DNA of 64,000 bases from Archangium violaceum (lineage in GTDB: Bacteria > Myxococcota > Myxococcia > Myxococcales > Myxococcaceae): positions 3,437,001-3,501,000 of the forward strand of contig NZ_CP069396.1 of assembly GCF_016887565.1 (NCBI RefSeq). The letters are read 5' to 3'. A program made the position numbers and the translations under genes. A model generated the notes under the pieces. It was given only the letters and a program-made list of their open reading frames with translations, made no database searches and was not told the DNA's origin. Each line of letters opens with the position of its first letter. Position 1 is the first letter of the stretch. Below are positions 7,171 to 58,997 of the stretch, piece by piece.

Positions 7171-8009
7171 GACTTTTGCTCCCGCCAGGGCAGGAACGCC
7201 GGCAGGTCCCGCTCCAACGTTCGGGGGAACTTCGCGGGCCGCTTCTGCAGGAACGACATCACGCCCTCCTCGGCGTCCGCGTTCTGGGCACAGCTCGCGA
7301 TGAGCTGGCTGTCGAGTGCGAAGGCGGGCTCGGGCGAAGGGAGCGCGCTCATCCGGTAGAGGGCCTGCCGGATGACGGCCACGGACACCGGCGCGGTGGT
7401 CTCGACCAGCTCGCGGGCGAGCGCATGGGCGGCATCGAGCAGCGCGCCCGGCTCGTGGAGGGACTGGACCAGGCCCGCGCCGAGCGCCTCTTCCGCCTGG
7501 ATCAGACGGCCACTCACCATCCAATCCAGCGCGCGCCCCATTCCGACGAGGCGCGGCAGGAACCAGCACGAGCCCGCTTCCGGATAGATGCCACGCCGGC
7601 TGAAGACGAAGCCAAAGCGGCTGTCTTTCGCGGCGAGGCGGAAGTCCGCGGGGAGGATCATCGTCGAGCCCACGCCCACCGCGGCGCCGCGGACGGCGGC
7701 GATGACCGGCTTGCGCAGCGCAAACATCTTGCGAGTCACCCGGGTCGCCGGCTCGACCCAGCCGCGCTCCAGATGGTTGATATTCGACACCTCGAACGAG
7801 CGGCCGCTCAGGTCCGCGCCCACGCAGAAGTCCTTGCCAGCGCCGGTGAGGATGACCACGCGCACGTCTTCGTTTGCGTCGGCGTCACCGAGCGCGTCGG
7901 CGAGCTCGTCCGCCATGGTCACGGTGAATCCGTTCCTCGCTTCGGGACGGTTCAACTCCAGGGTAGCGACCCGATCCGCAACCGAAGACCGGATGTGTTG
8001 GTAGCTCAT
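7167..8009 (-). CDS. Enoyl-CoA hydratase/isomerase family protein (crotonase)
   Basis: A 280-residue crotonase-fold protein: MSYQHIRSSVADRVATLELNRPEARNGFT, then GKDFCVGADLSGR (first oxyanion-hole strand), KPVIAAVRGAAVGVGSTMILPADFRLA, and SRFGFVFSRRGIYPEAGSCWFLPRLVG with a Glu at the usual second catalytic position. Family members hydrate enoyl-CoA or isomerise double bonds. This one is the promoter-proximal gene of the minus-strand operon, with a 19-bp palindrome 35 bp upstream of its ATG. The C-terminus FLQKRPAKFPRTLERDLPAFLPW is typical of hydratases and not of dehydratase or CoA hydrolase relatives. An upstream in-frame extension has no homology and was not used. Confidence 0.9.
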   Translation of the reverse strand: MSYQHIRSSVADRVATLELNRPEARNGFTVTMADELADALGDADANEDVRVVILTGAGKDFCVGADLSGRSFEVSNINHLERGWVEPATRVTRKMFALRKPVIAAVRGAAVGVGSTMILPADFRLAAKDSRFGFVFSRRGIYPEAGSCWFLPRLVGMGRALDWMVSGRLIQAEEALGAGLVQSLHEPGALLDAAHALARELVETTAPVSVAVIRQALYRMSALPSPEPAFALDSQLIASCAQNADAEEGVMSFLQKRPAKFPRTLERDLPAFLPWREQKS

Positions 8010-8043
8010 GAGTGGGGCCTCTATTCGCGTGATGATGGGGGCT

Positions 8044-8062
8044 TGTTGGCACCGTGTCAACA
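8044..8062. promoter_or_regulatory. 19-bp palindromic operator between divergent lipid operons
   Basis: TGTTGGCACCGTGTCAACA is an inverted repeat centred on 8053, with 8 of 9 arm positions symmetric. It lies 35 bp upstream of the enoyl-CoA hydratase start (minus) and 156 bp upstream of the histidine phosphatase start (plus). A near-identical palindrome lies at 14084-14102. Size and symmetry suit a TetR-family dimer; the regulator at 6484-7170 is the obvious candidate. The assignment of regulator to site is inference. Confidence 0.65.
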
Positions 8063-8217
8063 GCAACAGTCTTTGAAGTGCTGCCTGCGAGGCCATGCCT
8101 GGTGTCCGACGTGTTGCGTCATCGGGGGCTGGACGCGCGCGGCCAAGGGACTTCATCCGAGCCACTGCGTGATATGCAAGTCCCCCAGGCTCGCGGCAGC
8201 GGAACAACGGCGGCGAT

Positions 8218-8886
8218 ATGGGCGAAATCTATCTGGTGCGGCACGGTCAGGCCTCGTTCGGCACCGATGACTACGACCGGCTCTCGGCAGTCGGCGTCGA
8301 GCAGGCGCAGCGGTTGGGGGACTGGTTCCGCATGCGCGGTCTGACCTTCGACCGCGTCGTCATCGGAGCGCTGCTGCGCCACCGCCAGACGCTGGAGGCG
8401 ACCGGCTACACCGGCCTCGAGCCCGAAATCCTGCCGGGCCTCAACGAGTATCACTTTCACGCTCTGGTCGACTGCCACCTGGAGCAGTGCCCGGTCGAAC
8501 CGCCGCTAGACCTCAAGGACGCGCGTGTCTTCTACCGCCAGTTGCGCCTGACCCTCGGCGCCTGGGCCGACGGCACGCTGCGGCATCCGCGGTTGCCGGA
8601 AAGTTGGAACGACTTCGAAAGCCGCATCCGCGCCAGCCTGCGCGCGATGATCGACCGGCCCGACGCGCAGCGCGTGCTCGCGATCAGTTCCGGCGGCGCC
8701 ATCAGCGCGCTGGTGCGCGAAGTGCTCGGCCTCACCGTCGACCAGATGATCACCATGAACCTGCAAATGGTGAATACTGGCATCACCCGCCTGATGTTCA
8801 AGGGCGACAAGGTGCGGCTGCAGTCATGGAATGCGCAGCCGCATCTGGAGCGCCCGGATGCTGAACATCTGCTCTCATACACCTGA
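8218..8886 (+). CDS. Histidine phosphatase family protein (phosphoglycerate mutase-like)
   Basis: A 222-residue protein beginning [15 protein letters not shown], with the RHG catalytic motif (His9). The second catalytic histidine expected before the C-terminal SGG strand is replaced by [19 protein letters not shown], where the usual S-H-G reads S-S-G. That is a notable departure and may mean altered activity. It leads a plus-strand operon with an acyl-CoA dehydrogenase, a phosphotransferase and an SDR. I recall this four-gene combination from proteobacterial fatty-acid clusters. A role in dephosphorylating a phosphorylated acyl intermediate made by the phosphotransferase is conceivable but unproven. 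Confidence 0.85.
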
Positions 8887-20806: not shown

Positions 20807-21163
20807 TCATTCAGCGGGGGGATCGTCCACGGTGGGCACCGGAATCTCCATGCCCCGCAGGCGCCCCCTGAACACCGCGGCGCGCATCAGGAGCAAGGTA
20901 GTGACAGGTCCGGTGAGGGCAATGAACACCGAGATGAGCAGCGCATGGACGTAGAGCTGCCCGTGCTCGAAGGAGACCTGCACCACCGTCGCGAGTGTGA
21001 GGCACCAGGTTCCCAACGTCGTGCCCAAGGTGGGCGCGTGGACTCGCTGGAAGAAGCTCCGCAGGCGCAGGACCCCGAACGAGCCGATAAGTGCCGCCAG
21101 CGCGCCCGTCGCCGCGAGCAGCCCGGTCAGTGCATCCACCCACGGAGGCGTCGACGCGCTCAT
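20807..21163 (-). CDS. mrpG: Mrp-type Na+(K+)/H+ antiporter subunit G
   Basis: A 118-residue membrane protein with three hydrophobic segments (LTGLLAATGALAALIGSFGVLRL, TTLGTWCLTLATVVQVSF, HALLISVFIALTGPVTTLLLMRAAV) in the order typical of MrpG/MnhG, with the signature FGVLRLRSFFQRVHAPT. It is the last gene of the operon, its start overlapping mrpF by 4 bp. Mrp complexes exchange cytoplasmic monovalent cations for external protons and need all subunits. Confidence 0.93.
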   Translation of the reverse strand: MSASTPPWVDALTGLLAATGALAALIGSFGVLRLRSFFQRVHAPTLGTTLGTWCLTLATVVQVSFEHGQLYVHALLISVFIALTGPVTTLLLMRAAVFRGRLRGMEIPVPTVDDPPAE

Positions 21164-21438
21164 TCGATGAGCTCCCCGCGCAGGAGGAACTTGGACATCG
21201 CCGTGGAGCCCACGAACCCGAAGAGGGCGATGAGGAGGGCCGCCTCGAAGTAGGAACTGCTGCGGTAGATGAGCCCGAGCGAAAGGATGACCAGCATCGT
21301 GTTCACGTACAGGCAGTCGAACGCCAACACGCGGTCCTCCGCCCTGGGCCCGATGATCATTCGTGCGAGGGCCAGCATCATCGCGAGGGTGAGACAGCCG
21401 AGGGCGAATGCCAGTAACCAGGAGAGCAGCGGGCTCAT
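21160..21438 (-). CDS. mrpF: Mrp-type antiporter subunit F
   Basis: A 92-residue three-helix protein: LLAFALGCLTLAMMLALARMIIGPRAEDRVLAFDCLYVNTMLVILSLGLIYRSSSYFEAALLIALFGFVGSTAMSKFLLRGE. The GPRAEDRVLAFD motif and the FxGxxAxxKFLxRG end are diagnostic of MrpF. Overlaps mrpE and mrpG by 4 bp each, implying translational coupling and fixed stoichiometry. Confidence 0.94.
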   Translation of the reverse strand: MSPLLSWLLAFALGCLTLAMMLALARMIIGPRAEDRVLAFDCLYVNTMLVILSLGLIYRSSSYFEAALLIALFGFVGSTAMSKFLLRGELIE

Positions 21439-21923
21439 TCGAAGATCTCCATGAGCGGACGTTCATAGCGACGCTTGATGAGGGCCACCAGGTCCTCCTC
21501 GTTTTGAATGGCGAGTACGTGCAACAACAGGACGCGATTATCCGCCGAGAGCTGTGCCCAGGCGGTTCCCGGCGTGAACGTGATGATCATCGCCAGCACG
21601 GCCAATCCGCTCGGATCCCGCAGCTCGAGCGGAATGTGGACGAAGCCGGAGGGGATGTCGCGCGAGCGTCGCGTGAGGATGACCCACGCCACCTCGGCGT
21701 TCGACCGCAGCATCTCGAGCACGACCCGGCCGAACAGGCGTGCCATGACGAAGGGCCTGCGCAACCGCACCGGGGCGGGCCTGAGACGGACCGTCACCGC
21801 GGGCCAGAAGATCGCCAGGACGGCGCCGAGCACCAGCGTCCCCGCGCTCAACGACTGCATCAGCAGTATCCAGAGCAGGAACAGCGCAACCGAGAGCACG
21901 GGCGAAGGAAGGAGCCACCTCAT
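21435..21923 (-). CDS. mrpE: Mrp-type antiporter subunit E
   Basis: A 162-residue protein: two or three N-terminal membrane segments (LSVALFLLWILLMQSL, AGTLVLGAVLAIFWP) and a cytoplasmic C-terminal domain with the MrpE signature MLRSNAEVAWVILTRRSRDIPSGFVHIPLELRDPSGLAVLAMIITFTPGT. Overlaps mrpD and mrpF by 4 bp. Length is normal. Confidence 0.94.
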   Translation of the reverse strand: MRWLLPSPVLSVALFLLWILLMQSLSAGTLVLGAVLAIFWPAVTVRLRPAPVRLRRPFVMARLFGRVVLEMLRSNAEVAWVILTRRSRDIPSGFVHIPLELRDPSGLAVLAMIITFTPGTAWAQLSADNRVLLLHVLAIQNEEDLVALIKRRYERPLMEIFE

Positions 21924-23560
21924 CGCGCAGCCTCCGGCGCCGGGGTCGGCATCCGCACCCTGGCGCCAAGGACCGCATGGGTGTACCCGCGGCGGTCATA
22001 GAGGGACTGCGCCGTCGCACGCGCGAGCTCCATCGTGGGGGCGGCCGCGAGCGTCAACGCTACGCACGCGGCGAGGAGCGCCACCACGGGCAATCCCTCC
22101 GCCGCCCGAACCCGAGGCGGCTCGCGCTGCATCTCCGACCAGAAGGTGCGGATTCCCGTTCGCGTGAGCGCGATGAGGACGAGCAGACCGGACCCCAGCA
22201 GCCCGCCGACGAACAGCCATGCGCGGGTGGGAACGGACCCTGTCTCTTCACGCACCGCGAGCGCCGCCGACAACATGCCGAGCTTGCCGACGAAGGTCGA
22301 CAGGGGAGGCAGGCCTGAGATGAGCAGCGCGCACGCGACGAACGCCAGCGCCATCAAGGCGGTGGACGCGGGGAACGGCAGCGCGACGAGCGGCTCCTCC
22401 TCATCGTCGAGGTTGACCTCCTGCGCTTCGAGCGTCGCGCTCAGGAAGGGCGCCTCATCCACGACGGTCGCGCCCACGCGCCAGCGCTCGACGAGATCAA
22501 CGAGCAGGAAGAACCCGCTGGAGGCGAGCGTGGAGCTCACCAGGTAGAACACCGCGCCGCCGAGGACGGCCTCCTCGCCAAATCCAAGCGCCGCCAGGAG
22601 CGTCCCGGCGGAGACCACCACCCCCCAGGCCGCCTGACTCGCGAGCCGATGCGAGGCGATCATCCCCAGGGCCGCGAGCACCGCGGTGACCAGCCCGAAC
22701 ACGAACAGCCCGTCCGCACCGAATCCCGCCAGCGGACCCCCGGCGAACATCAGCGTCCACAGCCGCACCAGCGCGTAGATGCCGACCTTCGTCAACACGG
22801 CGAACAACGCCGCCACGGGTGGAGTCGCCGACGCGTAGGCGGGAACGAGCCAGAAGTTGAGCGGCCAGGCCGCCGCCTTGGCCAGGAAGGCCACCGCGAG
22901 GATGGCCGCTCCCGCGTCGATGAGGTGCCGGTTGGCCACGGCCCCCTCGGACAGGCGCGCGGAGAGCTCCGCCATGTTGAGTGTCCCCGTGATGCCATAG
23001 ATCATCGATGCTCCGATGAGGAAGAGTGACGAGGCGGCGAGATTGATGGCCACGTAATGCACGCCCGCTCGGACTCGCGATCTTCCGGACCCATGCAACA
23101 ACAGGCCGTAGGAGGCGGCGAGCAGGATCTCGAAGAAGACGAAGAGATTGAAGACGTCCGCCGTGAGGAACGCGCCGGACAGCCCCATGAGCTGTAACTG
23201 CGAGAGCGGGTGGAAATGAACGCCCGCGCGGTGCCAGCGCACGGAGGCGAAGGACAAGGCGCAGGCGCCGAGGACCCAGGTCAACACCAGCATCTCGGCC
23301 GAGAGGCGATCCACCGCGAGCGCAATCCCGAACGGCGCCGGCCAGTTGCCGGGGAGGTAGGCCACGACGCCGTATTCCTGTACCCACGCCAGCAGCGTCA
23401 CCGCGACGGCAAGCCCCAAGAGCGCCGAGCTCATCCCCAGCACCAGCTTGGCGGGGCGCCTGCCCTCGCCCAGCAGGAGCATCATCGCCGCCGTCAGCAT
23501 CGGCAGGAGGATGGGCGCCACGATCAGGTGTGGCATCAAGGATTGAGCGAGCGCCGTCAT
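21920..23560 (-). CDS. mrpD: Mrp-type antiporter subunit D (NuoN/NuoM-like)
   Basis: A 546-residue polytopic protein of the proton-translocating NADH-dehydrogenase subunit family, with FNLFVFFEILLAASYGLLLHGSGRSRVRAGVHYVAINLAASSLFLIGASMIYG, the conserved Glu in FFEIL and the Lys in FLAKAAAWPLNFWLVPAYASATPPVAALFAVLTKVGIYALVR. About 14 membrane segments. A hydrophilic insertion near residues 375-400 (ATLEAQEVNLDDEEEPLVA) is acidic and is longer than I expect for MrpD. It overlaps mrpC and mrpE by 4 bp. Confidence 0.94.
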   Translation of the reverse strand: MTALAQSLMPHLIVAPILLPMLTAAMMLLLGEGRRPAKLVLGMSSALLGLAVAVTLLAWVQEYGVVAYLPGNWPAPFGIALAVDRLSAEMLVLTWVLGACALSFASVRWHRAGVHFHPLSQLQLMGLSGAFLTADVFNLFVFFEILLAASYGLLLHGSGRSRVRAGVHYVAINLAASSLFLIGASMIYGITGTLNMAELSARLSEGAVANRHLIDAGAAILAVAFLAKAAAWPLNFWLVPAYASATPPVAALFAVLTKVGIYALVRLWTLMFAGGPLAGFGADGLFVFGLVTAVLAALGMIASHRLASQAAWGVVVSAGTLLAALGFGEEAVLGGAVFYLVSSTLASSGFFLLVDLVERWRVGATVVDEAPFLSATLEAQEVNLDDEEEPLVALPFPASTALMALAFVACALLISGLPPLSTFVGKLGMLSAALAVREETGSVPTRAWLFVGGLLGSGLLVLIALTRTGIRTFWSEMQREPPRVRAAEGLPVVALLAACVALTLAAAPTMELARATAQSLYDRRGYTHAVLGARVRMPTPAPEAAR

Positions 23561-23898
23561 GCCTCGGTGCCGTCCACGTGATCGGTCCCCGTCATCCCGC
23601 GCGAGGCCAGGATGACGACCAGGAGGAGCGCCGTCATCGCGAAGCTGATGACGATGGCGGTCAGCACGAGCGCCTGGGGTACCGGGTCAGTGTAGTGCAC
23701 GAGATCCCGCGGGACGCCATCGACGAGGATGGGCTCCTTGTCGATGGCCAGGCCTCCGATGCTGAAGATGAAGAGGTTGACGGCGTAGGAGATGAGCGAC
23801 AGGCCGACGACGAGCTGGAACGTGCGGGGCCGCAGAAGGAGCCACACGCCAGAGCCGGTCAACACTCCGATGGCGATCGCGAGTACCACTTCCATCAT
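23557..23898 (-). CDS. mrpC: Mrp-type antiporter subunit C (NuoK-like)
   Basis: A 113-residue NuoK-like three-helix protein: MMEVVLAIAIGVLTGSGVWLLLRPRTFQLVVGLSLISYAVNLFIFSIGG, then DPVPQALVLTAIVISFAMTALLLVVIL. The DPVPQALVLTAIVI motif identifies MrpC. Overlaps both neighbours by 4 bp. Confidence 0.94.
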   Translation of the reverse strand: MMEVVLAIAIGVLTGSGVWLLLRPRTFQLVVGLSLISYAVNLFIFSIGGLAIDKEPILVDGVPRDLVHYTDPVPQALVLTAIVISFAMTALLLVVILASRGMTGTDHVDGTEA

Positions 23899-26786
23899 TC
23901 ACCTCCCGAGGCCCGGTGCGCGCGGATCGACTGGTGAGCGAGCGCCACGAGGATGAGCAACGTGGAGCCCAGCACCAGACAGAACACGCCCAGATCGAAA
24001 AACATCGCGCTCCCGATGTGGAGCTCTCCCAGTACCGGAGCGCTCAGGTGGAGGGTGTGCGAGGTGAGCAGCGGATAGCCGACCACGAATGCCCCCGCGG
24101 CCGTGCCGAGGACCAGCAGGAGCCCGATCCCGATCAGCGCACGCGGCGCGAGGCGCAGGCGCTCCTCGACCCAAGCGGTTCCGGAAACGATGTACTGGAG
24201 CAGGAAGCCCACCGACATCACCAGCCCCGCCACGAAGCCGCCGCCGGGCGCGTTGTGCCCACGCAGGAAGAAGAACGCCGCCACCACACCCGTCACGGGC
24301 AGGAGCAGGCGAACCAGCACCGCCGGCACCATCAGGTACCCCACCGCGGTGTCCCGCGCCATGCGCGGGTTCACCAGATCCGTCTGCAAGTCCGCCGGGA
24401 GTACCTGCTGCTGCGGAGGAAGCGCCATGACCTCGGTCGCCGGCCGGAAGCGCCGCAGGAGCGCGTAGACGGTGAGCGCGACGAGCGACAGCACCACGCC
24501 CTCCCCGAAGGTGTCGAACCCGCGGAAGTCCACCAGCATCACGTTCACCACGTTCCGCCCGCCTCCGCCACTCAGCGAGTTCTCGAGGAAGAACGAGGTG
24601 CGCTCGGGGAAGTCTCGCGTCATCACCGCGTATGCCAGGATCGCCATTCCACTGCCGGCACTCACCGCGATGATGAAGTCGCGGGCTCGCCGGCCCTTGG
24701 CAACCCTCGCGGTGTGCGCATCGTACACGCCGCGGGTCGGCTCTCGCGGCGGAAGCCATCGGAGCCCGAGCAGGATGAGCAGTGTCGTCACCACTTCGAC
24801 GGTGAGCTGGGTGAGCGCGAGGTCCGGCGCGGAGAACCAGATGAACGTGACGCAGCTCACCGCGCCCGCGGTCCCCGACAGCATGAGCGCGGCGAGCCGG
24901 TGGAACTTCGCCTGCCATGCGGCCCCCAACGCCGCCACACCTCCGATACTCCACAACGCGATGAACGTCGGCGAGAGAGGCACCAGTGGACGCTCCCCCT
25001 TGCCAATGCCACCCCACAGCGCCAGGACGCCCACGCTCAGCGTGACCACCACCATCGCCAACAGCTGCCGCTGAAGTCCCGTGGTGAGCAGCCAGCGACG
25101 GGTCCATCTGCTCAAGAGGGTGAGCCGCGTCAGCAGTGACGCGAAGAGCCTCGCACCATCCAACCGCGCCAGGATGCGACCACCGAGGCGCTCTCGCACG
25201 GCCTCCAGCCGCTGGGCCACCCGGTACAACACTCCGCCACCGCCGAGCGCCAGCGCGCTCATCAGCAGCGGAGGAGTGAATCCATGCCATATCTTGAGGC
25301 TGTACGCTGGGGGGGGTCCACCCACGACCTGCCGGGCCGCGGCATCGAGCAGGGGCCCGATCGACACGGCTGGCGCGATGCCCACGACCAGGCACATGAG
25401 GACCAGCACCTCCACGGGGACGCGCATCCACTTGGGCGGCTCCTCCGGGACGCGCGGAGTGTCCCGCGCGCTGGCGGGTCCGAAGAACACCTTCGCCGCG
25501 AACCGGAGCGAGTAGGCGACGCTCCCCATGCCCGCCAGGGTCGCCGCGATCGGCAGGCCCCACTGGACGGCGGGAATGGCGTCGACGAAGACCGTCTCCG
25601 CGAAGAACATCTCCTTCGACAGGAAGCCATTGAGCAGCGGGACTCCCGCCATCGCCGCCGTGGCTACGACCGCGAGCGTCCCGGTGATGGGCATCTGGCG
25701 GAAGAGCCCCGACAGCCGCCGGATGTCCCGCGTCCCCGTCTCATGATCGATGATCCCCACCGCCATGAACAGCGAGGCCTTGAACGCCGCGTGGTTCATG
25801 AGGTGAAACACCGCCGCCACCGCCGCGAGCGGGCTGTTGAGCCCGAGCAGCAGCATCACCAACCCGAGATGCGAGATGGTGGAGTATGCGAGCAGCCCCT
25901 TCAGGTCGCGCTGGAACAGCGCCGCCCACGCGCCGAACAGCAGCGTGACGAGCCCAGCGGACCCGACGAGCCAGAACCAGCTCTCCGTCCCCGACAGCAC
26001 CGGCCACAGGCGCGCCAGCAGGAACACGCCCAGCTTCACCATGGTCGCCGAGTGCAGATACGCCGACACCGGCGTCGGTGCCGCCATCGCGTTCGGGAGC
26101 CAGAAATGGAAGGGAAACTGGGCGCTCTTGGTGAACGCGCCGAGGAGGATGAGGCAGAGGGCCACCAGGTAGAGCGGGTGGGCCTCGAGTCGCTCGGAGC
26201 TCCCGAGGACGACCTCCAATTCGTAGCTGCCTGCCATCTCGCCGAGCACCAGCAGCCCGGCGAGGAGGCACAGCCCCCCCATCCCGGTGACCGTGAGCGC
26301 CATCCGGGCCCCGCGCTGGGCGTCCTTGCGTTGGTTCCAATAGCCGATGAGCAGGAACGAGAAGAGGGAGGTCAGCTCCCAGAAGAACGCCAGCAGCAGC
26401 AGGTTTCCCGCGAGGACCACCCCCAGCATCGCGCCCATGAAGGCCAGGAGGAATGCGAAGAACCTTGGCACGGGATCCGACGGCGAGAGGTAGTACCGCG
26501 CATACAGCATCACCAGCGCGCCGATGCCGAGGACGAGCATGCAGAACGTCCATGAGAGGCCATCGAGCCTCAGCACCAGCTCGAGCCCCAGCGAGGGCAC
26601 CCACGGGAGACGCTCGACCAACAGGCCTCCCCCTTGGACTCTCGGGAAATGGAGCGCCACCCCCACCAGCCCCACCAGGGCGGTGAGGCCCGCGAGCCCG
26701 GCGGCGCGGTTGCGGGCACTCGTGGGCAGCAGCGCCGCGATGGCGCCGGAGACCACGGGGATGATCAAGAGAGCAAGAAGCGGCAT
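23895..26786 (-). CDS. mrpA: Mrp-type antiporter subunit A with fused subunit B
   Basis: A 963-residue protein. Residues 1 to about 500 are the NuoL-like proton channel (FFWELTSLFSFLLIGYW, TKSAQFPFHFWLPNAMAAPTPVSAYLHSATMVKLGVFLLARLW, LAYSTISHLGLVMLLLGL). The next 230 residues are the MrpA-specific extension (WFSAPDLALTQLTVEVVTTLLILLGLRWLPPR). The last ~140 (YLMVPAVLVRLLLPVTGVVAAFFFLRGHNAPGGGFVAGLVMSVGFLLQYIVSGTAWVEE) are MrpB, explaining the absence of a separate mrpB gene. First gene of the six-gene operon. The ribosome site before ATG 26786 is weak. Confidence 0.95.
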   Translation of the reverse strand: MPLLALLIIPVVSGAIAALLPTSARNRAAGLAGLTALVGLVGVALHFPRVQGGGLLVERLPWVPSLGLELVLRLDGLSWTFCMLVLGIGALVMLYARYYLSPSDPVPRFFAFLLAFMGAMLGVVLAGNLLLLAFFWELTSLFSFLLIGYWNQRKDAQRGARMALTVTGMGGLCLLAGLLVLGEMAGSYELEVVLGSSERLEAHPLYLVALCLILLGAFTKSAQFPFHFWLPNAMAAPTPVSAYLHSATMVKLGVFLLARLWPVLSGTESWFWLVGSAGLVTLLFGAWAALFQRDLKGLLAYSTISHLGLVMLLLGLNSPLAAVAAVFHLMNHAAFKASLFMAVGIIDHETGTRDIRRLSGLFRQMPITGTLAVVATAAMAGVPLLNGFLSKEMFFAETVFVDAIPAVQWGLPIAATLAGMGSVAYSLRFAAKVFFGPASARDTPRVPEEPPKWMRVPVEVLVLMCLVVGIAPAVSIGPLLDAAARQVVGGPPPAYSLKIWHGFTPPLLMSALALGGGGVLYRVAQRLEAVRERLGGRILARLDGARLFASLLTRLTLLSRWTRRWLLTTGLQRQLLAMVVVTLSVGVLALWGGIGKGERPLVPLSPTFIALWSIGGVAALGAAWQAKFHRLAALMLSGTAGAVSCVTFIWFSAPDLALTQLTVEVVTTLLILLGLRWLPPREPTRGVYDAHTARVAKGRRARDFIIAVSAGSGMAILAYAVMTRDFPERTSFFLENSLSGGGGRNVVNVMLVDFRGFDTFGEGVVLSLVALTVYALLRRFRPATEVMALPPQQQVLPADLQTDLVNPRMARDTAVGYLMVPAVLVRLLLPVTGVVAAFFFLRGHNAPGGGFVAGLVMSVGFLLQYIVSGTAWVEERLRLAPRALIGIGLLLVLGTAAGAFVVGYPLLTSHTLHLSAPVLGELHIGSAMFFDLGVFCLVLGSTLLILVALAHQSIRAHRASGGE

Positions 26787-27254
26787 CGTTCGAGGTGTGG
26801 GTGGGAGCGAGGGAGGCCAACCCCTTCCCTCTCAGTTCTTGGTGGGGCCCCGGATGTGGGGAGTGGGCCTCTCCGCTCCATGCAAGGCACGATGATCCCG
26901 CGTCATCCTGGGCATCACGCCACCATGAGCAGTTTTACCGCGCGTGACAAGCGGAAGAACGGCGACGGCCGCGCGATGGTTGAGTGCGTGGCAGACCGGA
27001 TTCCACTCAGGGATTGCCGCGGTGCCGTTCGATGACGGCGGCGTCGGTAATCCACTTGCTCGGGTGGTTCTTCGGTCACTCCTCCGGCTTGGGGTGCACG
27101 ATCGGGAGAGCCAGGCCGGTCGAATCTTCCGGCCGGTCGGCGCCACGCCCAGGAAGGTTCCGTGGTGCGTCCCGCGGTACGTCTTGTATGGGTTTCTCCT
27201 GGGACTTGGGGGATGCCTGCCGAGGGCAAGCCCAGGTGCTCCACAAGCGTTCGC
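26787..27254. other. Intergenic region upstream of mrp operon, with a SnoaL-like remnant
   Basis: About 470 bases. It must contain the mrp promoter on the minus strand, but I see no convincing -35/-10 pair. Part of it (27130-27200) carries a short recognisable protein fragment, listed separately. No complete gene is apparent in any frame. Confidence 0.5.
27130..27200 (-). pseudogene. Fragment of a SnoaL-like ester-cyclase family protein
   Basis: The minus-strand frame gives YKTYRGTHHGTFLGVAPTGRKI, which matches the GTHxGxFxGxPPTGR motif of SnoaL-like polyketide-cyclase/ester-cyclase proteins. The frame loses resemblance on both sides, so only about 22 residues survive. It lies just downstream of the MFS exporter of the RiPP-like locus. 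Confidence 0.35.
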
Positions 27255-28433
27255 TCACGGTGTGGCGGTGCGATGGACGTGCCAGGCGAGTGCCATCAAA
27301 CCCAGGACCAGCAGCAGGCCGAGGTTCAGCAAACCGCTCCACCCCAGCGCCGACAGGAGGGCCCCGGACGTCAGTGACGCCGCGCCGCTGGCGGCGAAGA
27401 CGCACAGGTCATTGAGTCCCTGTGCACGAAAGCGCTCGGGACCCGAGCGACTGCGCGCCACCAGGGTCGTCGCGGTCACGAACACGAAACACCAGCCCAC
27501 ACCGACCAGCGCCAGTCCGAGCATGTGCCCTCCCATGCCGGGAACCCAGCTGATCAGGAACCCCACGAGCAGGAAGAGCAGCCCCAATCCCTGCAACCAT
27601 GCGATCGACACTCTTTTCAGAATGGCGCTGATCGACAGCGAGGGCAGGTACATGCTCAGCAGGTGCACCTGTATCACCCAGCTCGCCTCCTGAATCATGT
27701 ATTGCTCGAAGCCACACATCTGCAAGGGCGTGGGTACCATGAGCAGGCTCATCACCAGGAAGGCACCGGCGCCCATGGCCACCATCGGCCAATACAACGC
27801 GCGAGCGCGTGCGTCGGGCGTGGCGGAAACCTCGGTGACGAACGCGCCTTGCGGTCGGTACAGCAGCAACGAGAGCGCGGCCAGGACCTGGAGCAAGGCC
27901 AGGATCAGCAGGACCCGGGGCACATAATCGGACGTCCTTCCCTCCAGCAGGCCGAAGAGCGAGATGCCGGGAAAGATGCCCACGGCGCTGGCGAGTTGGA
28001 TCAGGGTCAGCAGGCGCGGGGCCCTGCTGCTCTGCTGCCCCTCGAGGATCGCGAAACGATACTGCTGCACGAAGGAGCCGTGCAGACCGACACCGAAGAC
28101 GGCTGCGCAGAACAGCCAGAAATCGAACCGGTGCACCGCTCGTGCGGCGAGCGCCAGGCAGCCGGCGGCCAGCAGCGCCGAGGCGATGAAGCAGCGTTTG
28201 CGTCCGAAGTGGCGCATCAGCTGGCTGGCGGGCCAGGTGCCCAGCGCCGAGGACAGCACCATCACGGCCACCGGCAGGGTCGCGAGCCGTATATCCACCG
28301 CGAGCCACTTACCCACCAGGCTGCCGACGAACTGGATCGAAACCGCGCTGGCGAGCCCCACGACCTGACACAGCAGCAGGACCCGCGTGTTGATGGATGT
28401 GGCGGGGGCGGCCCGCGGAGCTCGGAGGATCAC
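27255..28433 (-). CDS. MFS transporter of the GCIS-peptide locus
   Basis: A 392-residue permease with about 12 membrane segments. The MFS signature between segments 2 and 3 appears as TWPASQLMRHFGRKRCFIASALLAAGCL. I chose the GTG at 28433 because it overlaps the stop of the preceding gene by 4 bp (GTGA). A longer open frame upstream is Arg/Pro-rich and antisense-like. It is the last of three tightly coupled genes behind the repeat peptide, so peptide or product export is the natural guess. It does not closely resemble a drug-efflux subfamily I can name. Confidence 0.85.
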   Translation of the reverse strand: MILRAPRAAPATSINTRVLLLCQVVGLASAVSIQFVGSLVGKWLAVDIRLATLPVAVMVLSSALGTWPASQLMRHFGRKRCFIASALLAAGCLALAARAVHRFDFWLFCAAVFGVGLHGSFVQQYRFAILEGQQSSRAPRLLTLIQLASAVGIFPGISLFGLLEGRTSDYVPRVLLILALLQVLAALSLLLYRPQGAFVTEVSATPDARARALYWPMVAMGAGAFLVMSLLMVPTPLQMCGFEQYMIQEASWVIQVHLLSMYLPSLSISAILKRVSIAWLQGLGLLFLLVGFLISWVPGMGGHMLGLALVGVGWCFVFVTATTLVARSRSGPERFRAQGLNDLCVFAASGAASLTSGALLSALGWSGLLNLGLLLVLGLMALAWHVHRTATP

Positions 28434-28975
28434 CGAACGTGCTCCGCAGCGGGTTGTGCGTCCAGGTCTTCCGCTTCGAGCTCCGCGATACCAGCCAGGG
28501 AAAGGCCCAGCTGCTGGTGGAGGAAGCGCACCATCGTCCAGTGGGGGAGTGCGCCCTCGTCGAAGGGACCGAACTCGTCGCGATACAGTGGCAGCCAGCG
28601 CAGGGCCTCCTCGAGCATCTGCTCCCGGCCAGGCTGGCTCCGCTGGTAGTCCTCGTACGGCAGGCTGCGGTGATGGATGAAGAAGCGTCCCGGAAGACGC
28701 TCCTCGCACAGCTGCCGATACTCCCGGGTCTGCAAGATCAGATAGTGCCAGACCTCATCGAGCGCCTGCTCCACGGGCAGGAACAGCCCGGCCAGCCGCT
28801 CCGGATGGCGCGAGATCAGGTACAGGTACTTCAGGCACTCGATGACCTGCCGCTCGACGTACGTGGGCTCCTCGCCGGTGGTCCGCACGAAGTGCCGCAC
28901 GACGCCGGAGAAGAGCGCGTCATCGAGCAATGCCCTGAGCGCGTCGGTCGTCACCTTGGATGGATTGGAATTCAT
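28430..28975 (-). CDS. Uncharacterised protein with DEVWHxxIL motif (GRDP-like?)
   Basis: A 181-residue soluble protein. Residues 69-102 read EQALDEVWHYLILQTREYRQ then LCEERLPGRFFIHH. The pattern D-x-x-W-H-x-x-I-L-x-T-x-x-Y, a Cys (Cys90), and F-x-x-H-H recalls the conserved core of glycine-rich-domain-like proteins (pfam07173) and related small bacterial proteins, from memory. His77, Cys90, His101 and His102 could bind a metal. ATG 28975 overlaps the adenylate-forming enzyme stop by 4 bp, and the stop overlaps the MFS start by 4 bp. Inside a RiPP-like operon it may be a modifying or partner protein, but I cannot assign a reaction. Confidence 0.75.
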   Translation of the reverse strand: MNSNPSKVTTDALRALLDDALFSGVVRHFVRTTGEEPTYVERQVIECLKYLYLISRHPERLAGLFLPVEQALDEVWHYLILQTREYRQLCEERLPGRFFIHHRSLPYEDYQRSQPGREQMLEEALRWLPLYRDEFGPFDEGALPHWTMVRFLHQQLGLSLAGIAELEAEDLDAQPAAEHVR

Positions 28976-30243
28976 GCGCCACCTTGTCCTGTCATCTCGG
29001 ATTCCCGCACCAGCCAGGCGTACTTCCCGGACTTGCCGATCGCGATGTGCTCGCGATGTTCGAGTTCGCATTCGAGACCGGCGACCTCCAGGCTTCTTTG
29101 TCGCAGCTCGCGCGCCACGGTCGGCTCGATGGGCCTGTTGTCGAAGGTGGTGTACAGCAATCGTGCCTGTCGCGGCGTCCTCAGGTGGAGCTGATAGAGG
29201 AAGATGGAGGGTGTGGCGTCGGCGATCCAGTCATCGAGATCCGCCTGGGAGATCACCCCCCCGTGCTCGAGCCGCAACAGCTCCCGCTCCCTCCCGCAGA
29301 ACCGGCGAATCCGAAGCGGGTCGGGGGAGCCATCGACCGTCTCGGCGCAATCGCCGGAGCGATAGCGAATCAGTGGCATGTAGGGGTTGCGCAGGCTCGA
29401 GACGATGATGCTGTAGATCGTGCTGTCCTTTTCGACGGGGATCAGCTCCAGGTGCATCTTGTCGAGGTAGGGCCAGTACCGTCCGTGGCGATCGCTGTAA
29501 TACAGATACCCCAGCTCGGTGCTGCCAAACAGGTCGATGATCGGGCAGTCGAAATGTTGCCGCAAGAACCGCTGCACGTTCTTCGGCGTGTACTCGTAGG
29601 CGTGAATGATGCTGGCCGGTTTTGGAAAGCGCTGCCATGAGCCCCAGTCCCGGGCCTTCCGCACCAGATGCGCGAGGTGGTAGCTGTCGCAGTCGAGGTG
29701 ATACGCGCCCTGCGGATGCGCCTGCTGGACGACGGTCATCTCATCGAGCATGCGCTCCACCTCGTCACGCTCCCAGAGCGCCGGATCGAGCCGCAGATTG
29801 AGGTAGAGCGTGCGCGAGTCGAGTCGACGCTCCTCGAGGCTTGGAAGTGCCTGGGCCTCGGCGCCGCGCTTCCTCGCGTTGAGTCGAGCCACGTGCTCGG
29901 TCGCCAGCACGGTGGTGATCGAGACACGCTGACAGTTCTGCTGCCAGGTGATGGCGATGTCGGGATGCTCGCTCCACAGCTGGTAGTAGGACTTCAACAG
30001 GAAGAAAGGAGGGCGGATGATCTGCATCCGTGCGTGATTGGTTCCGGTCGAGAGCACGAACTCCGCCTCGCCCACCTTCAATGCCTCAGCAAGCCTCGGG
30101 GTCATCCAATTGTCCGGGAAGCCCCTGGCGATCTCAGGCTTCTCCAGAATCGGGAAGAAACCCTGCTCGATCGACTGATGATAGATGGGGATGTCCCTGA
30201 CCTGCTCGATCATCTCAACGAGAGTCTGTCTTCGGGCGTCCAT
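28972..30243 (-). CDS. Adenylate-forming enzyme (phenylacetate-CoA ligase/CoF-synthetase-like) of the GCIS-peptide locus
   Basis: A 423-residue ANL-superfamily protein, short like PaaK relatives. Recognisable core motifs: S65TGTNHARMQI (P-loop, usual SSGTTGxP), F239GSTE (A5), Y294RSGD (A7), C316GRERE (A8 hinge) and K404SGK near the C-terminus (A10 Lys). All catalytic positions look intact, so it should adenylate a carboxylate. It lies 133 bp downstream of the 64-residue repeat peptide and overlaps the next gene by 4 bp. In a RiPP setting it might activate the peptide C-terminus, an acidic side chain, or an acyl group to be attached. No carrier-protein gene is nearby. Confidence 0.85.
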   Translation of the reverse strand: MDARRQTLVEMIEQVRDIPIYHQSIEQGFFPILEKPEIARGFPDNWMTPRLAEALKVGEAEFVLSTGTNHARMQIIRPPFFLLKSYYQLWSEHPDIAITWQQNCQRVSITTVLATEHVARLNARKRGAEAQALPSLEERRLDSRTLYLNLRLDPALWERDEVERMLDEMTVVQQAHPQGAYHLDCDSYHLAHLVRKARDWGSWQRFPKPASIIHAYEYTPKNVQRFLRQHFDCPIIDLFGSTELGYLYYSDRHGRYWPYLDKMHLELIPVEKDSTIYSIIVSSLRNPYMPLIRYRSGDCAETVDGSPDPLRIRRFCGRERELLRLEHGGVISQADLDDWIADATPSIFLYQLHLRTPRQARLLYTTFDNRPIEPTVARELRQRSLEVAGLECELEHREHIAIGKSGKYAWLVRESEMTGQGGA

Positions 30244-30376
30244 CGGTTGTGTGGGGGAGGGGAGTTGAACGGACCAATGAGAAGCGTTGCATCAGCCCTT
30301 CGGAGTGGGCGCGAGCGAGGCGGGAAACCACGGGAACGAGGCGCTTTCCACCTCGCTCGCGACCCGGACTACCCTA

Positions 30377-30571
30377 TCAGCTGATGCAGCCGGTCTTGGA
30401 GATGCAGCCGGCCTTCACGGGGGTAGCCCCCCTCGAGATACAGCCGGCCTTCACGGAGACAGCCGGCCCGGAGATGCAACCGGCATCGACAACCGGCGTA
30501 CCGGCCGAGTTGGCCGCGACCCACTGGTTCCAGAGCTGATCCTGGGCGAGCTGACGAATCAGGTTTTTCAT
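30377..30571 (-). CDS. Candidate RiPP precursor peptide with four GCIS units
   Basis: A 64-residue peptide. The leader-like part (1-29) is MKNLIRQLAQDQLWNQW then VAANSAGTPVVD; it is amphipathic and charged. The C-terminal part is built from repeats: AGCISGPAVSVK (30-41), AGCISRGATPVK (42-53), AGCISK (54-59) and TGCIS (60-64), ending exactly at the last Ser. Cysteines at 32, 44, 56 and 62 have spacing 12, 12, 6. The start at 30571 has a perfect GGAGG five bases upstream. A longer in-frame start (30634) lacks that. The gene is followed in the same direction by an adenylate-forming enzyme, a small protein and an exporter. The repeat core suggests multiple products or a multiply modified peptide. 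No lanthipeptide, radical-SAM or YcaO enzyme is adjacent. Confidence 0.75.
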   Translation of the reverse strand: MKNLIRQLAQDQLWNQWVAANSAGTPVVDAGCISGPAVSVKAGCISRGATPVKAGCISKTGCIS

Positions 30572-30630
30572 TCGAACCTCCGAGACTGAACAGGTGGATG
30601 ATGCATGGAAAAACATACACTTCCACAGCC

Positions 30631-30651
30631 GCACCCGGATGCGCTCGGGTG
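30631..30651. promoter_or_regulatory. Inverted repeat in the leader of the GCIS-peptide gene
   Basis: GCACCCG (30631-30637) and CGGGTGC (30645-30651) form a perfect 7-bp inverted repeat with a 7-base loop, 60 bases upstream of the peptide start. If the promoter at 30683-30711 is real, this would form a hairpin in the transcript leader; it could equally be an operator. Confidence 0.35.
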
Positions 30652-30682
30652 CTCCTCGGCCCGGCTGCGCGACCGTGTGTTT

Positions 30683-30711
30683 GTTTTAAGCTTCAACTAG
30701 TCTGGGGTCAA
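30683..30711 (-). promoter_or_regulatory. Possible sigma-70-like promoter for the GCIS-peptide operon
   Basis: On the minus strand, TTGACC (30711-30706) and TAAAAC (30688-30683) are separated by 17 bases, pointing toward the peptide gene with a leader of about 105 bases. The DNA here is locally AT-richer than its surroundings. Confidence 0.4.
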
Positions 30712-30779
30712 GGGTTCCTGGTTTTTCATGTCTGCTCAGGTTTTGGGAGTTCGTTCGGGATGTCAGAGGGGCATGCTAG

Positions 30780-32459
<1,680 letters not shown>

Positions 32460-32703
32460 AGTGGAGTCGGCGAAGGCCACGGACGAGGGGGCCCTCCTGG
32501 GCCTCGAGCGGTACGTGTCCAGGTCCTATACGCGACCCGTCTGACATGAGGGGGAGTGAACGCTCCCCATACAAGGTGGGCGTGCCCCGGTGACGTGGCT
32601 CTCCCGCCGTGTTGTTAAAGCGGGAATGGCTCCCCCCACCTGAACGGGTCCTGCCCATCAGGAGCGAGGGGAGCCACGGGATGTTCTCGAAAACGCGGGT
32701 GCT

Positions 32704-56205: not shown

Positions 56206-56467
56206 TTCATCACAGGAGGCGCCGTCCCAGGAGGGCAACCCGTCGATGTCTACACCCTCACCAGCAGGGGGGGAGAGTCGACTCAGGCGGCCCACGGCCA
56301 TCGGCGCGCGCATCCGCCAGGAGGACGAGCAGCTCCGCAACGGGCAGGACTATGACCACAGCTTCGTGTTCGACAAGGGCGGCAAGGCCGGCGAGCTGAC
56401 GCTGGCCGCGCGCGTCCACGAGGTGAGGGCCTTCGAGGCCCGCACCGCCGCCAAGGTGGCGGGTTGA
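56206..56467 (+). pseudogene. Internally deleted aldose 1-epimerase (galactose mutarotase) remnant
   Basis: At 56230-56265 one frame gives GGQPVDVYTLTS, the N-terminal beta-strand of GalM-type mutarotases. About 15 bases on, in another frame, RRPTAIGARIRQEDEQ (from 56279) and YDHSFVFDKGGKAGELTLAARVHE follow, the C-terminal third of the same family (usual FRKPTAIGARI, GYDHNFVLD, LAARVxEPxSGR). Some 200 intervening residues are missing, and after VHE the frame shifts out to a TGA at 56465-56467. A dead gene. Confidence 0.6.
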
Positions 56468-56532
56468 CAGTGATTCCTCCTTCTCAATACGGTCGACACC
56501 TCAACCCGTAGTCAAAGCTTGGCGAGGCTTCC

Positions 56533-56811
56533 ATGCGCGTGAAGAGTATGTTGGGCGGGCTGTTGGTGGCGGGGCTGTTGTCCGTGGGCTGTGGCGGCAC
56601 GATGCCGGAGGAGCAGCCGGAGCAGAGCCTCGATCAAGCCCAGCAGGAGCTCGTCCCGAGCTGCCCCTCTGGCTACACGTTGGGCTCCTATTGGGACTGC
56701 GCCCAGGTTTGCGGCGCCGGGTGGGGCAACTTCCTGCGCTACTACTGCTCCAACGGATCGGATTACTACGAAGTGGGAACCGGCAGTGTGCGTTGTGGAG
56801 CGTGTTACTGA
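56533..56811 (+). CDS. Small cysteine-rich exported lipoprotein
   Basis: A 92-residue precursor with lipobox LLSVGC (Cys20), a Glu/Gln-rich linker (EEQPEQSLDQAQQEL) and a mature domain with six cysteines (44, 56, 60, 72, 88, 91) plus many aromatic residues (SGYTLGSYWDCAQVCGAGWGNFLRYYCSNGSDYYEV). The even Cys count and their spacing imply a small disulfide-stabilised fold. Myxobacteria encode many such proteins with QAQQEL-type linkers; function unknown. A perfect GC-rich hairpin follows. Confidence 0.8.
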   Translation: MRVKSMLGGLLVAGLLSVGCGGTMPEEQPEQSLDQAQQELVPSCPSGYTLGSYWDCAQVCGAGWGNFLRYYCSNGSDYYEVGTGSVRCGACY

Positions 56812-56821
56812 CGTCCCACGC

Positions 56822-56856
56822 CCCCAGCCCCAGGAGAACCGGACCTGGGGCTGGGG
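56822..56856 (+). terminator. GC-rich hairpin after Cys-rich lipoprotein gene
   Basis: CCCCAGCCCCAGG (56822-56834) and CCTGGGGCTGGGG (56844-56856) are perfect 13-bp arms with a 9-base loop, 10 bp after the stop. Followed by CAGTCTCACCTCTC, a weak pyrimidine tract. Confidence 0.65.
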
Positions 56857-56934: not shown

Positions 56935-58182
56935 ATGACCTCCGCTGCAGACGTGGCGCCTCCTGATTCGAGCGCGCTCCGAGTCCCGGGTTACCGGACG
57001 TTTCTGATCACATTCATGTTGGCGATGATGGCCGACAACATCGAGCACGTGATCAGCTACTGGGTGGCGTTCCAGAAGTTCCACTCGGCGGCGCTGGGTG
57101 GGTTCGCGGTGGTGTCCCACTGGCTGCCCTTCTTGATGTTCTCGGTGCCGGTGGGCGCGCTCAATGACCGGTTCGATTCCAGGCGCCTCATCCAGGCCGG
57201 CATGGTGCTCTTCATCACCGCCTCCGTGGGCTGGGGCTACTTCTTCGTCACGGACTCCCTGCAACTGTGGCACGCCATGGTCCTCCTGACGATTCATGGC
57301 TGCGCGGGCGTGCTGTGGGGCACCTCCAGCCAGATGTTGCTCTACGACATCGTGGGGACTGGCTCCCTGGCCAGCGCGGTCCGCCTGAACGCGACGGCCC
57401 GGTATCTCGGGGTCCTGGTGGGTCCCGGTGTGGGCAGCCTCGTCATGCGGATGCTCGGGCCCACTTGGGGCATCTTCGTCAACACGGTGTTCTATCTGCC
57501 CCTGCTGCTGTGGCTGATGAGCGCGCCCTATGGCCGGCACTTCCGCGGAGTGACGACAAGCCCCAGGCGCGCCGTCCGAGGCCTGGCGGACATCGTCCAG
57601 ACCGTCCGCGACGTGCGTGAGCTGCCGGTGGTCGCGGCCATGGTGCTGCTGGCGGGGGCGGCCTCCTTCTTCATCGGCAACAGCTACCAGGCCCAGATGC
57701 CGGGCTTCGCCCAGGACCTGGGCCATGGAGACCCCGGCCTGGCCTATACGCTCCTGCTGGGAGCGGATGCGGCCGGTGCGCTGCTCGCGGGCATCCTGCT
57801 CGAGACGCGGGGCACATGGCTGCGGACGGCGCCCTCTTCCGCGATGAAGCTCGCATTGCTGTGGGGCTGCGCGCTCTTCACGTTCTCCTTCATGCACGCC
57901 TATCCGGCGGCGATTCTCGTGCTCTTCCTGGCCGGGTTCCTGGAGCTCTCCTTCAGCAGCATGACCCAGGCCCTCGTGCAGCTGAATGCGCCGGACACCA
58001 TGCGCGGCCGCGTGCTGGGGCTCTTCAGCATGTCGGCCTCCGGCTTGCGGGCGTTCAGCGGAGTGACCGTGGGGCTGCTGGGCAGCGTCACCAACATCCA
58101 CCTGTCGCTCGCGCTGTCCGCCCTGGCCTTCATGACGGTGGCCGGCCTGCTGCTTCTCCGTCGACGCCAGCAGGGCGTATAG
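56935..58182 (+). CDS. MFS transporter
   Basis: A 415-residue permease with about 12 membrane segments: YRTFLITFMLAMMADNIEHVISYWVAFQKFHSAALGGFAVVSHWLPFLMFSVPVGALNDRFDSRRLIQAG (segments 1-2 and the G-x-x-x-D-R-x-x-x-R signature), and later MRGRVLGLFSMSASGLRAFSGVTVGLLGSV. This resembles the MFS_3/enterobactin-exporter-like group. No co-directional neighbour; it stands between the Cys-rich lipoprotein and the convergent protease gene. Substrate unknown. Confidence 0.9.
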   Translation: MTSAADVAPPDSSALRVPGYRTFLITFMLAMMADNIEHVISYWVAFQKFHSAALGGFAVVSHWLPFLMFSVPVGALNDRFDSRRLIQAGMVLFITASVGWGYFFVTDSLQLWHAMVLLTIHGCAGVLWGTSSQMLLYDIVGTGSLASAVRLNATARYLGVLVGPGVGSLVMRMLGPTWGIFVNTVFYLPLLLWLMSAPYGRHFRGVTTSPRRAVRGLADIVQTVRDVRELPVVAAMVLLAGAASFFIGNSYQAQMPGFAQDLGHGDPGLAYTLLLGADAAGALLAGILLETRGTWLRTAPSSAMKLALLWGCALFTFSFMHAYPAAILVLFLAGFLELSFSSMTQALVQLNAPDTMRGRVLGLFSMSASGLRAFSGVTVGLLGSVTNIHLSLALSALAFMTVAGLLLLRRRQQGV

Positions 58183-58229
58183 CGGGGACGCGGGCGCCGC
58201 TGCGTGGGGCGCGGCCGGGGAGGGGCGTC

Positions 58230-58997
58230 TCAGCGTTCGGCGATGTCGGCGCTCTGCAAGTACGGGGACGCTTCGACAATCACTTCCGCGGTCCAGCCCC
58301 TGTTGGTTCCGCGGCCGGTTTCGTCGCAATCGCCATCGGTGTGGACGCCCAGCAGGTGGCCTTGACGGTTGAGCACGCCCGCGCCGGAGCTTCCGACCAG
58401 GGTGTCCAGGTCCGCGTAGTAGACGAGCTGATTACATGAGTCCAGGAACCTGCCTTCGGCGATGACCTTGGGCAGGCCCCGGGGATGCTGGATGATCGCC
58501 AACCGCTCGCTGGACCGGGTTGTCAGCAAGACCGGCGTGACGGAGGGAAGCACGTCGAGCGAGATGAGCGCATAGTCGGGGTCGAACGATTGCTCGATGA
58601 CAGTGCCCTCGGTCATCAGCGGGTCGCCGTCGGGCGCGTCCTCGAAGTTGAAGACCAGCAGCGACCGGTCCCCGAGCCCGACACAGTGCCCCGCGGTCAA
58701 CACCACCGGTCCCGCGCTCGCTTCAATCAGCGTTCCGGTGCAGCGTCCGTCGATCATGACGACTGCGTCTTCCCGGTCCTGGATGTCAGCGAACTCGCCC
58801 TGGTAGCTGTTGATGGGGGTGAAATCGAGGGTCGGACCGCACTGCCAGAGACTACTCACCTCCGGTGTCCGCGGATTCTCGCAGACCGGAGGATCCGCGG
58901 GCACCGCATCTCCACAGGCCACAACGCCCAGGAGTACGGTGCCCGCGAGGAGCGGGCCCCACAGAGTCATGGATGGACCAGGGGGCTGTCGCGCCAT
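58230..58997 (-). CDS. Exported trypsin-like serine peptidase (lipoprotein)
   Basis: A 255-residue protein (counting from 58997; ATG 58970 is an alternative). Lipobox LLGVVACGD, then a chymotrypsin-fold catalytic triad: His104 in VLTAGHCVG, Asp141 in FDPDYALISL, Ser204 in GSSGAGVLNRQG. Several cysteines allow disulfides. It lies 3 bp after the zinc-protease gene in the same direction, so the two secreted peptidases are co-expressed. Likely function: extracellular or surface proteolysis during predation. Confidence 0.88.
   Translation of the reverse strand: MARQPPGPSMTLWGPLLAGTVLLGVVACGDAVPADPPVCENPRTPEVSSLWQCGPTLDFTPINSYQGEFADIQDREDAVVMIDGRCTGTLIEASAGPVVLTAGHCVGLGDRSLLVFNFEDAPDGDPLMTEGTVIEQSFDPDYALISLDVLPSVTPVLLTTRSSERLAIIQHPRGLPKVIAEGRFLDSCNQLVYYADLDTLVGSSGAGVLNRQGHLLGVHTDGDCDETGRGTNRGWTAEVIVEASPYLQSADIAER

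Follow-up and report, generated by a model that had tools for sequence, protein, structure and literature searches.

Several described biosynthetic systems resemble parts of the locus analysed here, a peptide-encoding gene cassette of Archangium violaceum lying within a window of 64,000 nucleotides (NZ_CP069396.1, positions 3,437,001 to 3,501,000; all coordinates below are those of the window), the host genome being a single contig of 13.2 Mb. The thiovarsolins of Streptomyces, ribosomally synthesized and post-translationally modified peptides (RiPPs) made from VarA, likewise come from a short precursor that joins a conserved leader to short repeated cores, variable in number, and is encoded in a small operon (PMC6511847), but they involve YcaO, TfuA, ATP-grasp and heme-oxygenase-like proteins, none of which was found here, and their repeats carry APR instead of KxGCIS. 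Repeat-type graspetides such as corallotide also contain a repeated modified motif in each precursor, and dependence on a partner protein was described in that study (PMC13097080), whereas graspetides are defined by an ATP-grasp graspetide synthetase that the gene set of the KxGCIS cassette lacks. On the enzyme side, ClxA, NatL2 and AjiA1 share a fold along nearly the whole model of the ANL (adenylate-forming) enzyme of the cassette (Z 20–23.5), together with the common adenylation motifs; however, ClxA and NatL2 join small aromatic molecules rather than peptides (PMC12519233, PMC7204872) and are only ~15% identical to it.

The class-defining enzymes of known RiPP classes (lanthipeptide, YcaO, graspetide, radical-SAM) are not in the cassette, whose proteins match only ANL, major facilitator superfamily (MFS) and flavin monooxygenase models. 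In agreement with an earlier reading of this DNA (the original prediction), Pfam and NCBIfam models, run against the five cluster proteins and several neighbouring ones, revealed no standard RiPP class enzyme adjacent. No Pfam, NCBIfam or PADLOC model covers the peptide or the small DEVWH protein, a known RiPP or defence family for the peptide, ANL, DEVWH and MFS proteins was rejected past the ANL and MFS superfamily level, and no description of such a system was found in the open-access literature searched, subscription papers being outside the search. The locus is probably a new class of a known kind of system, the RiPPs. We give equal weight for and against the specific proposal that it is a small, horizontally mobile RiPP-like cassette in which the ANL enzyme acylates each KxGC[IV]S unit of the peptide, with the DEVWH protein as a Cys-handling partner.

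The four genes already described all lie on the minus strand and encode a precursor-like peptide of 64 aa (30377..30571), an ANL enzyme of the PaaK fold (423 aa, 28972..30243), a predicted helical protein carrying a DEVWH motif (181 aa, 28430..28975) and an MFS transporter (392 aa, GTG start, 27255..28433), with the previously noted 4 bp overlaps between the ANL and DEVWH genes and between the DEVWH and MFS genes confirmed by their coordinates. While these four genes hold, the original prediction overlooked a divergent gene on the plus strand for a type I Baeyer-Villiger-like flavin monooxygenase (545 aa, 30822..32459), the fifth cassette gene, as well as a strong hairpin between the peptide and ANL genes. 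The peptide, MKNLIRQLAQDQLWNQWVAANSAGTPVVDAGCISGPAVSVKAGCISRGATPVKAGCISKTGCIS, has Cys at positions 32, 44, 56 and 62 and ends at Ser64, as re-reading of the sequence verified; its leader (residues 1–30) begins MKNLIRQLAQDQLWNQWVAANSA and is followed by four GCIS units, three of them being KxGCIS. The GGAGG (30577-30581) ends 5 nt ahead of the ATG, in the intergenic region common to the divergent peptide and monooxygenase genes (30572..30821), where the promoter formerly proposed was not recovered, the scan giving no sigma-70-like promoter.

A scan with the ANL protein, using one genome per species, gave 79 related loci in other named genomes, from Sorangium, about 70 Streptomyces, Kitasatospora, Amycolatopsis, Kutzneria, Actinokineospora, another member of the Pseudonocardiaceae and Sinosporangium; later genome searches enlarged the set and included two divergent Pseudonocardiaceae. 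A short open reading frame (ORF) sharing the leader and the GC[IV]S units lies upstream of the ANL gene in 79/79 of these loci, and this RiPP-like pairing of an encoded precursor with adjoining enzyme genes is kept in two phyla. The 92 distinct precursors contain 285 units (269 GCIS, 15 GCVS and 1 GCIC), from 1 to 6 in each but mostly 3, with a Lys two residues ahead of the Gly in 275 units and with 285 of the 286 Cys confined to them. The unit Ser is encoded by both AGY (164) and TCN (120) codons, which are not joined by any single base change, indicating selection at the protein level, and the pooled ratio of non-synonymous to synonymous substitution rates (dN/dS) of 30 disjoint close pairs was 0.22. 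Leader residues invariant or nearly so in the alignment of relatives include L4, W14, W17 and N21, so that the precursors combine a conserved leader (W14, W17, N21) with a distinct core of repeated KxGCIS, as expected of RiPPs. The constant presence of the peptide, which the original prediction had staked its validity on, the purifying selection and the anticipated variation in repeat number were all borne out.

Alignment of the precursors indicates KxGCIS as the conserved unit. The pair of exact 12-residue units reported previously is exact in spacing, but the 12-mers agree at only 8/12 positions and the spacing differs in relatives (7 residues in Sorangium), which rules out an exact 12-residue repeat as the functional unit. 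A lipobox-like reading of AGC was also rejected, given a Lys at the −3 position and no visible signal peptide. Most precursors (83/92) end exactly at GC[IV]S; the other nine run past the last unit or are decayed (GCISR in Kutzneria, GCISKG, GCISRSQNRGS in Amycolatopsis, and others), and internal units are followed by A, V, S or K. In Sinosporangium siamense (L078), a decaying copy retains an intact ANL gene beside a peptide with a single GCVS unit. By these comparisons the 64-residue ORF is a real gene. The alternatives, a repeat without function or a regulatory leader ORF that has no relation to the ANL enzyme, have nothing in their favour beyond the small size of the ORF, and we assign them virtually no probability, since the peptide is found in every ANL locus of two phyla; this universal conservation, of leader and units alike, and the purifying selection rule out a chance or overlapping ORF.

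The ANL enzyme contains the motifs A3 (STGTNHARM), A5 (FGSTELG), A7 (YRSGD), A8 (GRE) and A10 (GKSGKYAW), intact as first reported, and STGTNHARM, FGSTELG, YRSGD, GRE and the lysine of the C-terminal SGK (K407) are kept through 39 ANL members. In the ANL superfamily, a C-terminal SGK-type lysine serves as the adenylation lysine. The structural model (predicted local distance difference test, pLDDT, 90) matched PaaK1 (Z 24.9, root mean square deviation 3.5, 357 aligned) and BT_0428 (Z 24.6), as well as the coenzyme A (CoA)-independent ligases ClxA (Z 23.5) and NatL2/AjiA1 (Z 20–21), and the substrates of several of the closest structural matches are small aryl acids. No Pfam family was matched above its cut-off, NCBIfam gave a weak link to a CoA-ligase family, and the cut-off of the phenylacetate-CoA ligase model TIGR02155 was not reached (12.1 vs 646.3 bits). 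Motifs, model and structure matches together mark the protein as an adenylating enzyme of the PaaK fold, and an intact one. From acid, ATP and nucleophile, ClxA directly produces amides and phenyl esters (PMC12519233), and the product of NatL2 is an ester (PMC7204872); the cassette enzyme, being alike in fold, may perhaps transfer from acyl-AMP to a nucleophile without CoA in the same way. In the stretches searched, no GCIS or leader-type peptide accompanied distant ANL homologues of other myxobacterial families, and relatives on Klebsiella plasmids were rejected as the same system, being located in nonribosomal peptide synthetase clusters.

The DEVWH gene follows the ANL gene in every locus with enough sequence, except in the decayed L078, where it was not found. 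Its product, modelled as helical (pLDDT 85), had no match in Pfam, NCBIfam, PDB sequences or PDB folds, and Foldseek and VIA-align gave nothing useful for its fold, an absent match being no proof of a new one. In the wider DExWH alignment, D73, E74, W76, H77, I80, L81, T83, Y86, C90 and G96 are invariant. The nearest described family is GRDP-like (PF07173, DUF1399), to which distant DExWH relatives come just below the cut-off (21.8 vs 22.7 bits for L105), but the window protein has no Pfam match, none of 38 DEVWH members reached the PF07173 gathering threshold, and the roles described for plant GRDPs concern growth and stress, not peptide modification.

DExWH proteins accompany Cys-rich peptide segments in three settings. 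Besides the cassette, a DEMWH gene follows a peptide of 46–50 aa, such as MKKSRSKKAHQLITALVKETTQGPIDICRICSFCMFCNICRIGSTK, in four other myxobacterial genomes (G019, G033, G125, G126), and follows MNTHSTASRKDTLLEQLLAKNVNDMCIPPCVVCSVCRVG or its variant in G123 and G124; no ANL gene was recognised at these loci, and in genome G133 a DExWH gene occurs without such a Cys-rich peptide. In actinobacterial DIGWH-type proteins (L180-L184), a Cys-rich tail is part of the protein itself, for example ...CSQCHAGCTDSPVGGK, and one such tail region matched the Nif11 leader model below its threshold (E 0.12), a hint only. Because short Cys-rich peptides immediately precede other DExWH genes in places where no ANL gene is nearby, our results suggest that DExWH proteins are partners of Cys-containing peptides in general. 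The myxobacterial pairs, in which a DEMWH gene comes after a 39–50 aa peptide with a CxxC-rich tail and ANL is lacking, are in themselves a second candidate RiPP-like pair (L185:6730-7580, L186 about 7380-8239, L188:6553-7416, L132, L111:8592-9417, L112:8814-9628). The fused Cys-rich C-terminal tail of the actinobacterial DxxWH-type proteins (L180:6915-7421, L181, L182:6962-7471, L183:6935-7501, L184) resembles a leader plus core, and the L183 protein gene is followed by one for a methyltransferase.

In the gap that separates the stop codon of the peptide gene from the ANL start, an inverted repeat on the minus strand (30307..30364) has 20-nt arms that are 85% complementary. The corresponding gaps in both phyla (n=46) had a mean folding z of −3.3, with 36/46 below −2 and the window at −3.6, and the hairpin is kept across phyla although the gap sequences differ. 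The inverted repeat that had been placed in the leader region does exist but is merely 71% complementary, the strong conserved one lying instead 3′ of the peptide gene. A hairpin 3′ of a precursor gene is a known means of producing more substrate than enzyme, and the element is probably involved in transcript processing or attenuation that favours precursor over enzyme mRNA.

The cassette is found at unrelated sites in two genomes of the same genus, G003 and G005, as a block of 5.2 kb containing all five genes (27238..32577), with 91–92% DNA identity over 27238-32461 and 27270-32552 of the window, respectively, and past its ends nothing contiguous matches, save a 66-bp piece in G003. The five genes therefore appear to move together. 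The cluster is absent from three other genomes of the genus. Myxobacterial sequences nest among those of the Pseudonocardiaceae in the ANL tree, rooted only at its midpoint, which suggests transfer from Actinomycetota. The ANL family is patchy and discrete: in genome searches with an E limit of 1e-20, matches were all-or-none, with 30/247 Streptomyces and 7/249 genomes from the family to which the Amycolatopsis genome belongs giving hits, all at E < 1e-200, and a search drawn evenly over the phylum Actinomycetota returned it from the centre genome only. Carriage by ~12% of the sampled Streptomyces species, S. noursei being one carrier, means that culturable carriers are at hand.

The divergent monooxygenase gene is part of the cassette, as the presence of the same five-gene block at unrelated sites indicates, and it is optional in the wider family. 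Its product carries the type I Baeyer-Villiger monooxygenase (BVMO) fingerprint FxGxxxHxxxWP and two Rossmann motifs and matches the FMO-like family of Pfam. It shares this fingerprint with BVMOs of the PtlE/PenE type, its best NCBIfam match (299 bits), but falls far under the PtlE cut-off of 1100 and forms a group of its own, with cassette-linked or co-occurring copies in other genera 51–80% identical vs ~37% for full-length paralogues. Outside the genus, identity to the window gene ranged from 51 to 81%, while other full-length paralogues in nine genomes tested reached ~37–38%. Homologues adjoin the cluster in 17 loci, and their placement takes at least four forms. The gene lies upstream and divergent in the window, G003 and G005, upstream and co-directional in L116-L119 and L076, downstream and co-directional in Sorangium L002-L004 and in Streptomyces L059, L069 and L080, and downstream and convergent in Amycolatopsis L046 and L047 and Actinokineospora L054. 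Among 59 myxobacterial relatives, strong ANL matches and the monooxygenase occurred in exactly the same four genomes, and copies of at least ~53% identity, mostly unlinked, were present in 9/30 ANL-bearing vs 8/217 other Streptomyces (Fisher p ~2e-5, kinship ignored); no GCIS peptide stood alongside the unlinked Streptomyces copies. The MFS protein gave a weak MFS_1 match, and its gene, absent from a fair share of actinobacterial loci, is common but dispensable in related loci.

Building on the observed gene content, conservation, adenylation motifs, predicted fold, co-occurrence, mobility and hairpin, we propose that the 64-aa peptide would be the ribosomal substrate, its conserved leader recruiting the enzymes and each KxGC[IV]S unit of the C-terminal half being the likely site of modification. 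The ANL enzyme would convert a small carboxylic acid into an acyl-AMP; the acid is probably an aromatic one or some other metabolite of the host, since the cassette holds no acid-making genes. By analogy with ClxA and NatL2, the acyl group might then pass without CoA to a nucleophile of each unit, most likely the Cys, with Ser or Lys as possible targets either directly or via an acyl shift. The DEVWH protein could be a partner dedicated to the system, binding peptides that contain Cys and either presenting their thiol or processing it, possibly by its invariant D, H and C. The flavin monooxygenase, where present, may oxidise either the acyl group or the product, for which the MFS protein may be the exporter. 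Several points weigh against this proposal. Only some of the loci have the monooxygenase nearby, and about one-third lack the MFS gene; neither a leader peptidase nor a RiPP recognition element (RRE) domain was recognised in the cassette; the DEVWH protein, whose catalytic role is putative, has a model that fits no solved fold; and Cys acylation may be a mere intermediate, because thioester products would be labile.

An alternative that we consider rather unlikely is that the peptide serves as a carrier or scaffold: the ANL enzyme would load an acid on the GCIS thiols as thioesters, the monooxygenase and DEVWH protein would act on it, and a small molecule rather than the peptide would be released and exported. 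Identical repeated units in variable number, the strict confinement of Cys to them, the CoA-independent relatives of the ANL enzyme and the small-molecule-type BVMO and MFS genes of the block would all suit such a carrier; however, conservation of the preceding Lys and the following Ile-Ser almost equals that of the Cys itself, beyond what a bare thiol carrier needs, and no release enzyme was identified. Quite improbable, in our estimation, is adenylation by the ANL enzyme of the peptide's own carboxylate, at Ser64 or on each unit after proteolysis, to yield thioesters, macrocycles or short GCIS-derived peptides. The exact GC[IV]S ends of 83/92 precursors and the very short products that thiovarsolins release from repeat-core precursors (PMC6511847) point to it, but the nine precursors that do not end in a unit disfavour it, internal units continue into other residues, a protease was not recognised, and small aryl acids are the substrates in several of the structures closest to the ANL model. 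Thus, while the RiPP-like, ANL-linked reading of the original prediction stands on the peptide's presence and purifying selection, its C-terminal activation is weakened.

Highly doubtful, too, is a metal-binding peptide of the metallothionein or metallophore kind, with GCIS repeats as ligands, DEVWH as metal-handling partner and ANL capping the peptide: repeated Cys, the D, E, H and C among the DExWH invariants as possible ligands and the CxxC-rich partner peptides elsewhere agree with it, but Cys spacing varies widely, most precursors have only three Cys, and the cassette holds neither a metal regulator nor a metal transporter. Returning to acylation of the units, it is possible, with the balance falling slightly short of even, that the system represents a new RiPP class, defined by the pairing of a PaaK-type adenylating enzyme with a DExWH partner, each KxGCIS unit of the ribosomal peptide being acylated from an acyl-adenylate and DExWH being a general, hitherto unrecognised protein for modifying or presenting Cys peptides that also serves the myxobacterial CxxC-rich peptides. 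We know of no case of an acyl-adenylate ligase as a class-defining RiPP enzyme. If true, a RiPP class with such a ligase as key enzyme would be added, and the DExWH motif would offer a handle for Cys-peptide systems that current RiPP rules miss.

Among the surroundings of the cassette, a complete-looking Mrp-type Na+/H+ antiporter operon adjoins it on the minus strand of the window (20807-26786), including an MrpA/MnhB fusion (23895-26786); MrpA had no match in the sequence stretches covered around the cassette of the other genomes. In about 40 Streptomyces loci (e.g. L014, L016, L030, L012, L036), the cluster has genes for a SulP permease and a beta-carbonic anhydrase no more than 5 kb away, on either side or on the opposite strand, and in Sorangium So ce26 a carbonic anhydrase gene (L002:9844-10500) lies 3′ of the monooxygenase gene. 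Finally, a 364-bp stretch of the window (56462-56825) is 87% identical to L115:12647-13010, just past the cassette end in G005, and a tRNA-Pro lies near it (58172-58257); the stretch may be a shared element.

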